Source: Bifidobacterium polysaccharolyticum
Lineage (GTDB): Bacteria > Actinomycetota > Actinomycetes > Actinomycetales > Bifidobacteriaceae
Length of the DNA stretch: 64,000 bases
Direction: 5' to 3'
NCBI RefSeq assembly: GCF_016101585.1
Contig: NZ_JACFQG010000003.1
Location: 187,826-251,825, forward strand
The translations under genes were made by a program, and so were the position numbers. Below the pieces are notes generated by a model, which searched no databases, was not told where the DNA came from, and saw nothing but the letters and a program-made list of their open reading frames with translations. Positions 36,123 to 40,727 of this stretch are shown piece after piece (the stretch's first letter is position 1; the number at the start of each line of letters is the position of its first letter).

Positions 36123-37082
36123 ATGAGGCACAGCAGCGGCGATGTGCACGACTGGGGCGTTAGACGGGCAGTGAATGCCCTAAGTGCTTTTGCCTTCATC
36201 TACGTGGCCATCGAGACCCTGGTAGGCCTTTTGGGAGGCAAGGTTGTTCTGCCTGCTCTCTTCCCGCATGCTTCCAAAACGCAACTCAACGGTCCTTTGT
36301 CGGACTGGACAGTGGTTATCTCTGTAGTGTTGGCCCTGCTGTTTGCCTTGATCAGTCAATGGCCGGTCATTGTAGGCCATGAACGGCATGGCCAGGACCA
36401 GGTGCGTTGGGTTACCGCCCGCCGATTCAGCCTGTTGGCGCTGATCATCGCCCTGGCCTGCTTCTTCCTCAGTCAACTGGTGGCCAGTGCGGCCGACTCT
36501 GGACTGGGCGCTATTCTGTCGGGTACTGGGCTGCATCCGCCGACCGCACCTGATGACGGCGGCATGGAAACGCCGATCATGCTCTTCTATGCCATTCTTT
36601 TGGGGCCTTTTGCCGAGGAGCTGGTCTTTCGCGGGGTCATCATGAACGGCTTGCGCCGCTTTGGTCGTGTCTTCGCCATTATTACCTCTTCTTTGCTTTT
36701 CGGTTTCATGCATGGCTCCTTGGTCCAGGGTCTGTTCGGTTTCATTTCCGGCCTGGTTCTGGGCTATCTGGCCATGGAGTACGGGCTGGTCTGGTCCCTG
36801 CTGGTGCACATGCTCAACAATGCCTTCTCTTCAGGTCTGCTGGCCAAGTACATGCCCCTGGCACCCGAGGTGGTTCGCATCGGCCTGGGCCTGCTCATGA
36901 TCCTGGTGCTGCTGATCGGTGTCGTCGGGCTGCTGTTCAAGATTAGGACTCTCCGTGATTACTGCCGCAGCAATCGCGCTCCCAAGGGAATCTATGCTTC
37001 CTGGAGGGCGCCTTGGTTCCTGCTCTTCTGCCTGGCGTGCCTGCTGATGGCCCTGAGCGAATTCGTACCAGGGCTGGCTTGA
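36123..37082 (+). CDS. CPBP-family intramembrane metalloprotease (paralogue 1)
   Basis: Polytopic membrane protein (319 aa) of the CPBP/Abi family, related to eukaryotic CAAX prenyl protease 2. All three active-site motifs are intact: EExxxR (Glu165, Glu166, Arg170 in AEELVFRG), the His of FGFMHG (His197), and HxxxN (His229, Asn233 in HMLNN). Such proteases act in bacteriocin maturation or immunity and in membrane-protein processing; the substrate here is unknown. ATG at 36123 follows GAGGGGCGG; the frame is open to 36069. It is first of three tandem paralogues sharing a similar C-terminus (RAPKGIYASWRAPWF). Confidence 0.85.
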   Translation: MRHSSGDVHDWGVRRAVNALSAFAFIYVAIETLVGLLGGKVVLPALFPHASKTQLNGPLSDWTVVISVVLALLFALISQWPVIVGHERHGQDQVRWVTARRFSLLALIIALACFFLSQLVASAADSGLGAILSGTGLHPPTAPDDGGMETPIMLFYAILLGPFAEELVFRGVIMNGLRRFGRVFAIITSSLLFGFMHGSLVQGLFGFISGLVLGYLAMEYGLVWSLLVHMLNNAFSSGLLAKYMPLAPEVVRIGLGLLMILVLLIGVVGLLFKIRTLRDYCRSNRAPKGIYASWRAPWFLLFCLACLLMALSEFVPGLA

Positions 37083-37225
37083 CCGGACGGCCTATGGCAC
37101 CGGCTCATTGTTGGGATTCTGTCGAGGAAGGGCGGGGTCGGGCTAGACTCGGTTATGTAGTGTCATGATATGAACGCGGGGAAGGTTCGTGTCGCTGGAC
37201 GCCCTTGAGGGTCGTACGGTAGTGC

Positions 37226-39571
37226 ATGAAGGGGAAGGATCATCGACGGATGAGGGATGATGAGGATCACGACAGCGGCGGCGAGTCTGCCGATGTCCAA
37301 GATGAGCAGGGGCGCTGGAAGGCCTCGCGTTCCTCTCTTGCCCTCGTGACCGCAACCCATACCGCCGGCAAGGACTACGCCCGCCACTGGGACTACCAGG
37401 AGGGGTCCATCGATCTGCCGCCGCTCAGCCTGCCGGGCCAGGCCGTGGATGATGGCCTGGCCTACCCGGGACGGATTGCCCATAGAAAGATTGTGCTTCC
37501 GGGCGCTGAAGGGGCTGGCCATCGTGGGCACACGGGGACTATGCCTGTCGGTGAACGACCCTCGGTGCTTCCTGGATCCGATGATTTTTTGACATCGGTC
37601 ACTATGGCCAGTCAACCGGCTGTTCCAGCATTTCCTCCGACGGACCTGTCTGCCGACGAGCACGGAGAGAAGGGGGCCGGCGAGGGGTCTGTACCCCGGC
37701 GCGTGGTTATTCGCCGTGATCTGGAGGCCCCCAAAGCTACGAAGGCCTCGAAGCAGCAGGATCATTCTGCAGCCAAAGTTGTCTGGTCCTGGACCAAGCC
37801 GGAGGTCAGCGATGCTCCGGTTTTCTCCTGGAATATGGGCAAAGGCCGCAAGCCGGCAGCAAAAACCCATGCAGGCAAGCCCAAAGCCCCTACCGCCAAG
37901 GCTTCGTCTCTTGCCACATCTGTTCCTGCCTCGCCAACCAAGGCTACAGGTTCTGCCGTTTCAACAGCATCTGCCCCCGGTTCTTCGTCCGCCGAACCGG
38001 CTGAGTCCAAGCCGACGGCTACGGCTGGGGCGTCTCCGGTTGCCGTTTCGGCGGATTCGCTGTCTGTCAAGCAGAATACAGAGGCTTCCGCACCTGCCAA
38101 AGTGTATGTTCAGCAGTCTCCGACCCCAGTGGTGTTCACTGATCGGCCGGTCGTCGTTCGCCGCTCAAATGCCGACTGGGACTCGCTTATCGCTGGTTCA
38201 TCAGCTTCAGGTCAGAACGTCGCAGCTACACAATCCGTTGCCAGTGGCGCCAAACATCAGAGGCGCCAGGTCTGTTCGACCCCACGGGTAGTTGATCAGC
38301 TGGCCGAGGTCGGCGGCATCAGTACAGGCGGCCGGACTGTTTCGTCATCACCGAGGACTCCGGCCGCTCAGGCGGATCATGCCGTTCAGCCTGTGCAGGC
38401 CGTCCAGACAGTAGGTGAAGTTCAATCCGTCGGTGCCCAACCCGCTCCGTCTGATTCCGCCAAGGCAGCGAATACATCGGCTCCAGCCGCGCAGCACGTT
38501 GGCGTCTCAAGCAAGCTGGACGAGGGCACGCCGAATGCTTCGGCAGCAGCCAAGGCCCAGGTTCAAGCCAAGACGAAACCACAGACGGCCACCAAATCGG
38601 CACCCTCTGGCAAGCCCGTCTCCTACAGGGCCAGTTCGGGGGTTCTCCACGCCGTCAACGGCCAGGCCGCCTTCGCCTTTGTCTACCTTGCCATATCCGT
38701 GCTGATGCTCATGGTCGGTTCGGGGATGATCCTGCCGGTCATCATGGAGCGGGTCAAGGATCCGAGAGCCATTGTCTTCATGTCCGATGGGAATACTCTC
38801 CTGTCGGTCCTGCTGGCGCTGGCCTATGCCTGTATTTCAGAGTGGAGCGTTATTCGAGGTAAGGAGCAGCGAGGACAGGACGCTGTCCATTGGCGAACAG
38901 ATAGAAGAATGACGCTGGCGGCTCTGCTGGCCCTTGTAGCGGTGCTTCTGCTGGGCCAAGGAATGGTCCATGGACTGAACAAGTTCTTCAACCACATCTG
39001 TCTGCTTCTGCACATCCCCTCCCTGGCCTCGCGCAGTCTGCTGGTCACCGGCACTTCCTCGCCGATGATGGCCGTGTATGCCCTCTTGGCGGTTCCTCTG
39101 GCTGAGGAGCTGGTTTTCCGTGGCATCATCCTCAACGGGCTGCGCCGGTTCGGGAGAGTCTTTGCCATCCTGACCGCATCCCTGCTCTGCGCACTGTTGC
39201 AGTGTGACCCGGTCTCTGGGCTCTGGATCTTCCTGCTGGGGCTGGCACTGGGGTATTGCTCCCTGGAGTATGGCCTTGTCTGGGCCATTGGAGCCCGTGT
39301 GGTCGGCAATCTGCTCTTCAGCGGCCTGCCCAACCGTTACCTGATGAGCGCTCCACGAACTGCTCGTATGTCGATTTTGGCAGTGGCATTGGTCTTGGTT
39401 CTGGCTGGACTGGTCATGTTCTTCCTGCACCGCGCCAGTCTGTTTGACTACCGGCGGCGCTATCGAGCCCCTAAGGGAACCTACGCTTCCTGGAGGCAGC
39501 CCTGGTTCCTGCTCTATTTGCTGCTCTGCCTGCTGCTTACAGTCTTCAAGTTCGTGCCCGGTCTGCTCTAG
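37226..39571 (+). CDS. CPBP-family protein with long disordered N-terminus, probably inactive (paralogue 2)
   Basis: A 781-aa protein in two parts. Residues 1 to about 475 are low complexity (Ala/Ser/Pro/Thr/Lys-rich), with no signal peptide or membrane segment, so this part should be cytoplasmic and disordered. The rest is a CPBP membrane domain closely similar to paralogue 1. EExxxR is kept (Glu627, Glu628, Arg632), but the motif-2 His is Gln659 and the motif-3 His is Arg691, at exactly the offsets (+32, +64) where paralogues 1 and 3 have His; Asn695 remains. It is therefore probably a pseudoprotease. The start could also be the ATG at 37250. Confidence 0.82.
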   Translation: MKGKDHRRMRDDEDHDSGGESADVQDEQGRWKASRSSLALVTATHTAGKDYARHWDYQEGSIDLPPLSLPGQAVDDGLAYPGRIAHRKIVLPGAEGAGHRGHTGTMPVGERPSVLPGSDDFLTSVTMASQPAVPAFPPTDLSADEHGEKGAGEGSVPRRVVIRRDLEAPKATKASKQQDHSAAKVVWSWTKPEVSDAPVFSWNMGKGRKPAAKTHAGKPKAPTAKASSLATSVPASPTKATGSAVSTASAPGSSSAEPAESKPTATAGASPVAVSADSLSVKQNTEASAPAKVYVQQSPTPVVFTDRPVVVRRSNADWDSLIAGSSASGQNVAATQSVASGAKHQRRQVCSTPRVVDQLAEVGGISTGGRTVSSSPRTPAAQADHAVQPVQAVQTVGEVQSVGAQPAPSDSAKAANTSAPAAQHVGVSSKLDEGTPNASAAAKAQVQAKTKPQTATKSAPSGKPVSYRASSGVLHAVNGQAAFAFVYLAISVLMLMVGSGMILPVIMERVKDPRAIVFMSDGNTLLSVLLALAYACISEWSVIRGKEQRGQDAVHWRTDRRMTLAALLALVAVLLLGQGMVHGLNKFFNHICLLLHIPSLASRSLLVTGTSSPMMAVYALLAVPLAEELVFRGIILNGLRRFGRVFAILTASLLCALLQCDPVSGLWIFLLGLALGYCSLEYGLVWAIGARVVGNLLFSGLPNRYLMSAPRTARMSILAVALVLVLAGLVMFFLHRASLFDYRRRYRAPKGTYASWRQPWFLLYLLLCLLLTVFKFVPGLL

Positions 39572-39656
39572 AGCATGACGTATTGGGGCTGCCAGTGGTG
39601 GCGTAGACTTGGACCAGCTGGAGGTCAGTGCCGGATGGCCAAACCTGCAGAGGATC

Positions 39657-40727
39657 ATGAAAGGGCATGGTGACATGGGGCAGACAGCGACGGCAGCCGA
39701 CGCGTCAGCGACTGGGCAGACTCAAAAGCCCAGACGAGGCATGGCGGATCGCGCATGGATGAGTGCGGCCAGGGGGATGCTTAACCGTCAGGCCGCCCTG
39801 CTGCTGGTCTATCTGCTTATCATCAACAGCGTCGGTTTTCTGTTCGGTGTTCTGGCTCAGATGGAGTGGAATGCCGTGTTTGATCCGGTGCCTGCCCACT
39901 CGGGATTTATGTATGTGATCGTCCATGCTGACAAGGAGTATGGAGGCATCATCAACCTGATCGCCGCCTGCACAGGTCTCTGCTTCCTGGTCTTCACGCG
40001 GCGGCGGCAGATCTGCGATTCAGGCCCTATGGGCATATTCCACACTGATCTGCACCCCATGACCTGGCAGGTTTTGCTGGGATGCTTTGCACTGACGCTG
40101 ACCGGGCAGACCCTGGCGGACTGGTATCAGTCAGGCATGGACTGGACCACGGCGCGGTTGGGAGTGCAGCAGTCCTGGACCACGACTGAGCAGATCCAGC
40201 AGGCCTCGGGTACTATCCCCATGTTCATCTACGTCAGCCTGCTGGCCCCCGTCATCGAGGAGCTGGTCTTCAGAGGGGCTATCCTGCACGCGCTGAAGCC
40301 CTACGGCCACGTCTTCGCCATCGTCACCTCCGCTGTTATGTTCGGCTTCTTCCACGGCGATCTGGATCAAGGATTCTTTGCTTTCATTATGGGTCTGCTC
40401 TTGGGCTATCTTGCCTGCGAATACTCCATCTTCTGGTCCATAGCCCTGCACGTGTTCAACAACCTGGTCGTCAGCGACGGGCTGGAACTCCTGCTCGGGT
40501 TTATGAGCGACAATATGTCTTCTTACGTCAACGTGCTCATGATGTTGGCAGGCATGCTGGCAGCCGTGCTGGTCCTTTACTTGGGCCGCCATAGGATCGT
40601 CGCTTTTCTGCGGGAAAACCGCACGTATACGAACGTCTATGGTGCCTGGGCCTGCCCGTTCTTCATCATGCTGCTGCTGATCATGGGCTTCACGATGCTG
40701 ACCCCCTTCGTTTCGACCGGTGCTTGA
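39657..40727 (+). CDS. CPBP-family intramembrane metalloprotease (paralogue 3)
   Basis: A 356-aa CPBP membrane protein with an intact active site: Glu201, Glu202 and Arg206 (IEELVFRG), His233 (FGFFHG), His265 and Asn269 (HVFNN). A polar N-terminal segment of about 40 residues precedes the first helix. The C-terminal VYGAWACPFF corresponds to the end of paralogues 1 and 2, so the three arose by duplication. The start is uncertain among TTG 39609, ATG 39657 and ATG 39675. No bacteriocin-like peptide gene was found nearby. murA follows after 140 bases. Confidence 0.82.
   Translation: MKGHGDMGQTATAADASATGQTQKPRRGMADRAWMSAARGMLNRQAALLLVYLLIINSVGFLFGVLAQMEWNAVFDPVPAHSGFMYVIVHADKEYGGIINLIAACTGLCFLVFTRRRQICDSGPMGIFHTDLHPMTWQVLLGCFALTLTGQTLADWYQSGMDWTTARLGVQQSWTTTEQIQQASGTIPMFIYVSLLAPVIEELVFRGAILHALKPYGHVFAIVTSAVMFGFFHGDLDQGFFAFIMGLLLGYLACEYSIFWSIALHVFNNLVVSDGLELLLGFMSDNMSSYVNVLMMLAGMLAAVLVLYLGRHRIVAFLRENRTYTNVYGAWACPFFIMLLLIMGFTMLTPFVSTGA

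Follow-up and report, generated by a model that had tools for sequence, protein, structure and literature searches.

A putative CPBP pseudoprotease with a long N-terminal tail, conserved between two motif-intact paralogues in the Bifidobacterium asteroides group

Three CPBP genes fill the leuD–murA interval

The window (the whole stretch of DNA analysed, 64,000 nucleotides) comes from a member of the bee-associated Bifidobacterium asteroides group. It carries the gene order leuC, leuD, P1, P2, P3, murA, plsC, gpsA, in which the interval from leuD to murA is taken up by a tandem triplet of CPBP genes. As proposed by a sequence-only reading of this DNA, all three match PF02517, with scores of 67.4 (P1), 45.7 (P2) and 64.3 bits (P3) against a gathering cut-off of 22.4; the P2 match spans residues 613–696. 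The features are listed below.

36123..37082, + strand: P1, CPBP (PF02517) of 319 residues with EExxxR, FxxxH and HxxxN intact (Pfam match, orthologues in 16 genomes)
37226..39571, + strand: P2, putative pseudo-CPBP with a long N-terminal tail, 781 residues as listed and 773 from Met9 at 37250 (Pfam, alignment, purifying selection)
37250..38638, + strand: P2 tail, low-complexity sequence rich in Ala, Ser, Pro, Thr and Gly, predicted cytoplasmic, with no Pfam match
38645..39568, + strand: P2 membrane core, eight predicted transmembrane helices with a predicted Rce1/SpdC-like fold (hydropathy, structure model)
39104..39121, + strand: P2 motif 1, EExxxR (E627, E628, R632), kept in 16/16 orthologues
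39188..39202, + strand: P2 degenerate motif 2, C655..Q659 replacing FxxxH, in 16/16 orthologues
39296..39310, + strand: P2 degenerate motif 4, R691..N695 replacing HxxxN (orthologue alignment)
39609..40727, + strand: P3, CPBP (PF02517) of at most 372 residues that keeps every motif (its orthologue in other Bifidobacterium is the CPBP next to murA)

P3 may start at a later ATG, at 39657 or 39675. The nearest named relative that we found was B. asteroides ESL0199, with identities of 94% over the P2 core and 92% over the whole of P2. A scan for promoters and terminators gave no excess over shuffled sequences. Elsewhere in the window's genome lies a fourth CPBP of about 378 residues (G000:C7:159750-160658), which is conserved across the genus.

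P2 has lost two of three catalytic motifs

We scored the family motifs EExxxR, FxxxH and HxxxN, following the layout of PMC3578759, in the 16 genomes that hold the triplet, 13 of them close (the window's included) and three distant. P2 lay between P1 and P3 in every one. P1 and P3 retained all three motifs in all 16 genomes, extending what had been read from the window, and EExxxR of P2 was likewise intact throughout, the sole motif of P2 to survive everywhere. Motif 2 of P2 reads CxxxQ in all 16 orthologues where an active CPBP glutamic protease has FxxxH: the first His is replaced by Q659 (codon CAG, 39200–39202), and the Phe is also gone, with C655 in its place. Motif 4 departs from HxxxN as well, reading RxxxD in 12 orthologues, RxxxN in the window's genome only and HxxxS in the three distant genomes. 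At the second His the window has R691 (codon CGT, 39296–39298).

Gln659 and Arg691 lie at offsets equal to those of the two His residues in P1 and P3, confirming the sites named by the sequence-only reading. Its further points need division. The Gln substitution is shared by all 16 orthologues, but Arg by only 13, and the three distant ones still have the second His; a search for orthologues with His residues in place thus found none for the first and three for the second. The Asn said to persist does so in the window's genome (N695, AAT), but 12 other close orthologues encode Asp (GAT) and the three distant ones Ser.

Chance does not account for the pattern, which is seen at this position in all 16 genomes, and the shared loss of motifs bears out the description of the middle copy as a conserved pseudoprotease flanked by two motif-intact paralogues, so far as residues can tell. 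From these we infer that P2 is without proteolytic activity. The presumed catalytic Glu of EExxxR is fully kept, and some residual or altered chemistry may be conceivable. Conversely, P1 and P3 are not callable as active from their motifs alone, since Abx1 of group B Streptococcus functions without needing its own intact motif residues, acting through contact with CovS in the membrane rather than as a protease (PMC3578759).

The membrane core resembles Rce1 and SpdC

A core model was built with AlphaFold2 from 50 related sequences, giving a pLDDT of 82 and a pTM of 0.83 for P2. The best match of this model in VIA-align 2 was Rce1 (4cad; Z 9.7 over 202 residues), followed by SpdC within the SagB complex (6u0o; Z 8.5 over 183 residues), although Z values of 8–10 are modest for a helical bundle; the next rows were unrelated proteins with Z of at most 6.2. 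Plain Foldseek of the P2 core against the PDB returned no match with E under 0.001, and a sequence search of the PDB with the core profile returned no chain at E up to 1, 6u0o included. The model is consistent with an eight-helix CPBP fold of the Rce1/SpdC type.

P2 is under purifying selection

Pairwise Nei–Gojobori dN/dS values were calculated over 12 close genomes. The P2 core gave 0.114, level with the motif-intact paralogues (P1, 0.092; P3, 0.106), and the Rce1 region, at 0.074, was the most constrained part of P2. The comparison genes murA and leuD gave 0.019 and 0.033. Purifying selection on P2, proposed as a check on its status, was therefore found, and because every P2 in the dN/dS set had already lost the site, constraint persisted after that loss. 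The reading frame of P2 is open in 16/16 genomes, with no stops or frameshifts; together with the core dN/dS this rules out neutral decay at the species level.

The N-terminal tail is true coding sequence with conserved blocks

P2 likely starts at Met9 (37250), which is invariant in 14 aligned orthologues and is preceded by an AAGGGGAAGGA stretch; the first eight listed residues are therefore probably untranslated. The tail had been put at 475 residues: it is long, as claimed, but counted from Met9 it measures about 463–467 residues. Across orthologues its length ranges from 380 to 842 residues and its content of Ala, Ser, Pro, Thr and Gly from 45 to 54%.

Substitutions in the tail peak at the third codon position (1,101, 897 and 1,810 at positions 1, 2 and 3). 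Of 440 indels counted between pairs of P2 genes, 422 have lengths divisible by three. This codon-position bias and the in-frame indels speak against a tail that results from an open reading frame drawn too long, and we rejected that reading. Its dN/dS was 0.17 over the first 115 residues and 0.26–0.50 further on, faster than the core. The bulk is fast-evolving low-complexity sequence, within which the short motifs ARHWD, WSWTKP, FSWNM, ADWDSL and CSTPR are conserved. A[RK]HW[DE] occurs close to the N-terminus in 15/16 orthologues (the remaining one has ARYWN), WSW..P in 15/16, with two distant genomes carrying WSWQKP elsewhere in the tail, and FSW[NS]M in 13/13 close genomes.

Hydropathy and a basic TM2–TM3 loop place the P2 N-terminus inside. 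The Ala/Ser/Pro-rich N-terminus of the sequence-only reading is upheld: it is coding, has conserved blocks and is predicted to be cytoplasmic. By its composition the tail is presumably disordered; a full-length AlphaFold2 model from 14 rows had a pLDDT of 34, a value that says nothing on disorder or structure.

A search with the tail in 39 relatives of the same genus and order gave matches in close orthologues only. In its TCN-serine form, WSWxKP has a single occurrence in the window's genome, the one in P2, and the motif therefore gives no pointer to a partner. In two distant P2 orthologues (L049 2786-6208 and L048 2962-6264) the tails reach about 800–840 residues and contain repeats like SSPVLPLxDDPVGVG, which suggests that they grew through internal repeats.

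P2 derives from the line of P1

In an IQ-TREE tree of 58 CPBP cores, used unrooted, P1, P2 and P3 each formed one group, as did each of the two CPBPs of other species. P1 and P2 grouped together with support of 100/100 (P2 clade, 100/99), and P3 clustered with the CPBP that adjoins murA in other Bifidobacterium (96/86). By these groupings P1 and P2 are sister paralogues, P2 having been duplicated from the line of P1, and P3 is the older copy, a long-standing neighbour of murA. The P1 gene of one distant relative (G015; L048 ~1868-2850) shows an apparent C-terminal frameshift, with the last 47 profile positions in another frame, which may reflect either an error of sequencing or genuine damage to the gene.

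Two motif-intact CPBPs lie upstream of murA in five species of the same genus. In six same-genus genomes with murA (G005, G006, G016, G017, G023 and G024; loci L116–L121) we found no CPBP matching P2, and the core profile matched only G016, weakly, on the murA contig but far off. The CPBP genes of the locus thus appear dispensable in some lineages.

In other Bifidobacteriaceae a CPBP with its E, H, H and N residues intact was seen near leuD–murA in many cases, and these motif-intact proteins (L093–L112) often bear N-terminal tails of 100–250 residues rich in Pro, Gln and Tyr. Since motif-intact CPBPs at the same locus have tails, an N-terminal tail is, on sequence grounds, a recurring and so far undescribed design of the leuD–murA locus and no mark of a dead copy. 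We liken these tails to that of P2 in design and claim no homology.

Discussion

We favour, at a probability of roughly 0.6, the reading that P2 is a lineage-specific, non-catalytic CPBP retained for a role as scaffold or adaptor in the membrane. It would go back to a tandem copy of P1 made in the common ancestor of the asteroides/indicum group. In the simplest order of events the Phe and His of motif 2 and the Asn of motif 4 would have been lost first, on the P2 stem, and within the asteroides subgroup the second His would subsequently have given way to Arg. Transmembrane partners would dock in the former substrate groove of the eight-helix core, and the short Trp-containing motifs of the disordered cytoplasmic tail would draw in partners from the cytosol. 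The loss of motif 2 in 16/16 orthologues and, in effect, of motif 4 in 16/16 counts for this reading, with P1 and P3 losing none.

P2 would probably serve the cell envelope, like SpdC in Staphylococcus. Scaffold function, partners and envelope role are all argued by analogy, and the gene neighbourhood is a weak pointer to the last of these; the lack of CPBPs at the locus in several same-genus species counts against it.

Pseudo-CPBPs as such are already known. SpdC (LyrA) of Staphylococcus aureus is without catalytic residues and almost certainly no protease; it scaffolds SagB and is a non-proteolytic scaffold for envelope enzymes and sensor kinases (PMC7387801, PMC10581084). Like P2 it has an eight-transmembrane CPBP fold with catalytic residues lost, and 6u0o is the second structural match of the P2 core. 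In contrast to SpdC, to which it has no detectable sequence relation, P2 retains EExxxR, bears a tail of 380–842 residues and sits between motif-intact paralogues. LnsB of Staphylococcus likewise has a CPBP-like core without catalytic residues and a non-proteolytic role, but it works with LnsA and is required for lipoprotein N-acylation. Abx1 differs in retaining all the motif residues, where P2 has lost motifs 2 and 4, and ComM of Streptococcus pneumoniae differs in sequence and setting and may have a proteolytic role.

P2 could instead be a regulator of its neighbours that binds P1 and/or P3 and governs their folding, location or substrate access, the tail serving as a platform for regulation, in the manner of iRhom, which acts on ADAM17 and clients. 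P2 shares with iRhom an inactive intramembrane-protease core and a long cytoplasmic N-terminal extension, but iRhom belongs to the rhomboid serine protease fold family and the P2 core is a CPBP by Pfam and structure; SpdC/LyrA and LnsB, which have the CPBP fold family in common with P2, are the closer precedent. The resemblance in architecture (review, PMC6451368) is joined by the position of P2 between P1 and P3 in 16/16 genomes and by its derivation from P1. However, duplication alone accounts for the tandem position, known pseudo-CPBPs target unrelated partners (SagB, histidine kinases), and motif-intact CPBPs also bear tails. We consider such a regulator unlikely. Its more specific form, in which P2 would be the inactive subunit of a three-CPBP assembly and would recruit or restrain P1 and P3 through core and tail, is distinctly unlikely; if true, the assembly would be the iRhom principle realised in bacteria with CPBP proteins.

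It is rather doubtful that P2 is still an enzyme whose active site has been remodelled (Glu-Glu-Arg plus Gln/Arg/Asp) for proteolysis or other chemistry. Such a site would fit the invariance of EExxxR and of the replacement Cys and Gln (16/16), the Arg found in 13/13 close orthologues and the tight constraint on the Rce1 region (dN/dS 0.074). However, the His pair and Asn of a CaaX-type protease are absent in the asteroides subgroup, motif 4 varies by subgroup (R..D, R..N, H..S), which would be odd for a working site, and fold-critical residues persist in pseudo-CPBPs too. That P2 is a decaying pseudogene or drifting duplicate, as stepwise loss of active-site residues and a fast-evolving tail of variable length might suggest, has next to no chance of being correct given a core dN/dS matching that of the motif-intact paralogues and 16 genomes with in-frame indels and no stops or frameshifts in P2.

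A literature search, with most subscription journals outside its coverage, found no report of such a tailed pseudo-CPBP, nothing on CAAX proteases of B. asteroides and no description of a non-catalytic CPBP in bifidobacteria. What appears new is a lineage-wide, stepwise-inactivated CPBP with a cytoplasmic tail of several hundred residues, kept between motif-intact paralogues.

P2 as a membrane scaffold or adaptor would be a clean example of how an intramembrane protease of bacteria became a pseudoprotease, in which the losses can be ordered over 16 genomes and the adjoining motif-intact sister copies serve as controls, constraint on P2 having stayed at their level. The design of a tail on a CPBP at the leuD–murA locus seems widespread in Bifidobacteriaceae, and non-catalytic CPBPs (SpdC, LnsB, Abx1, ComM) are an emerging theme of envelope control in Gram-positive bacteria.
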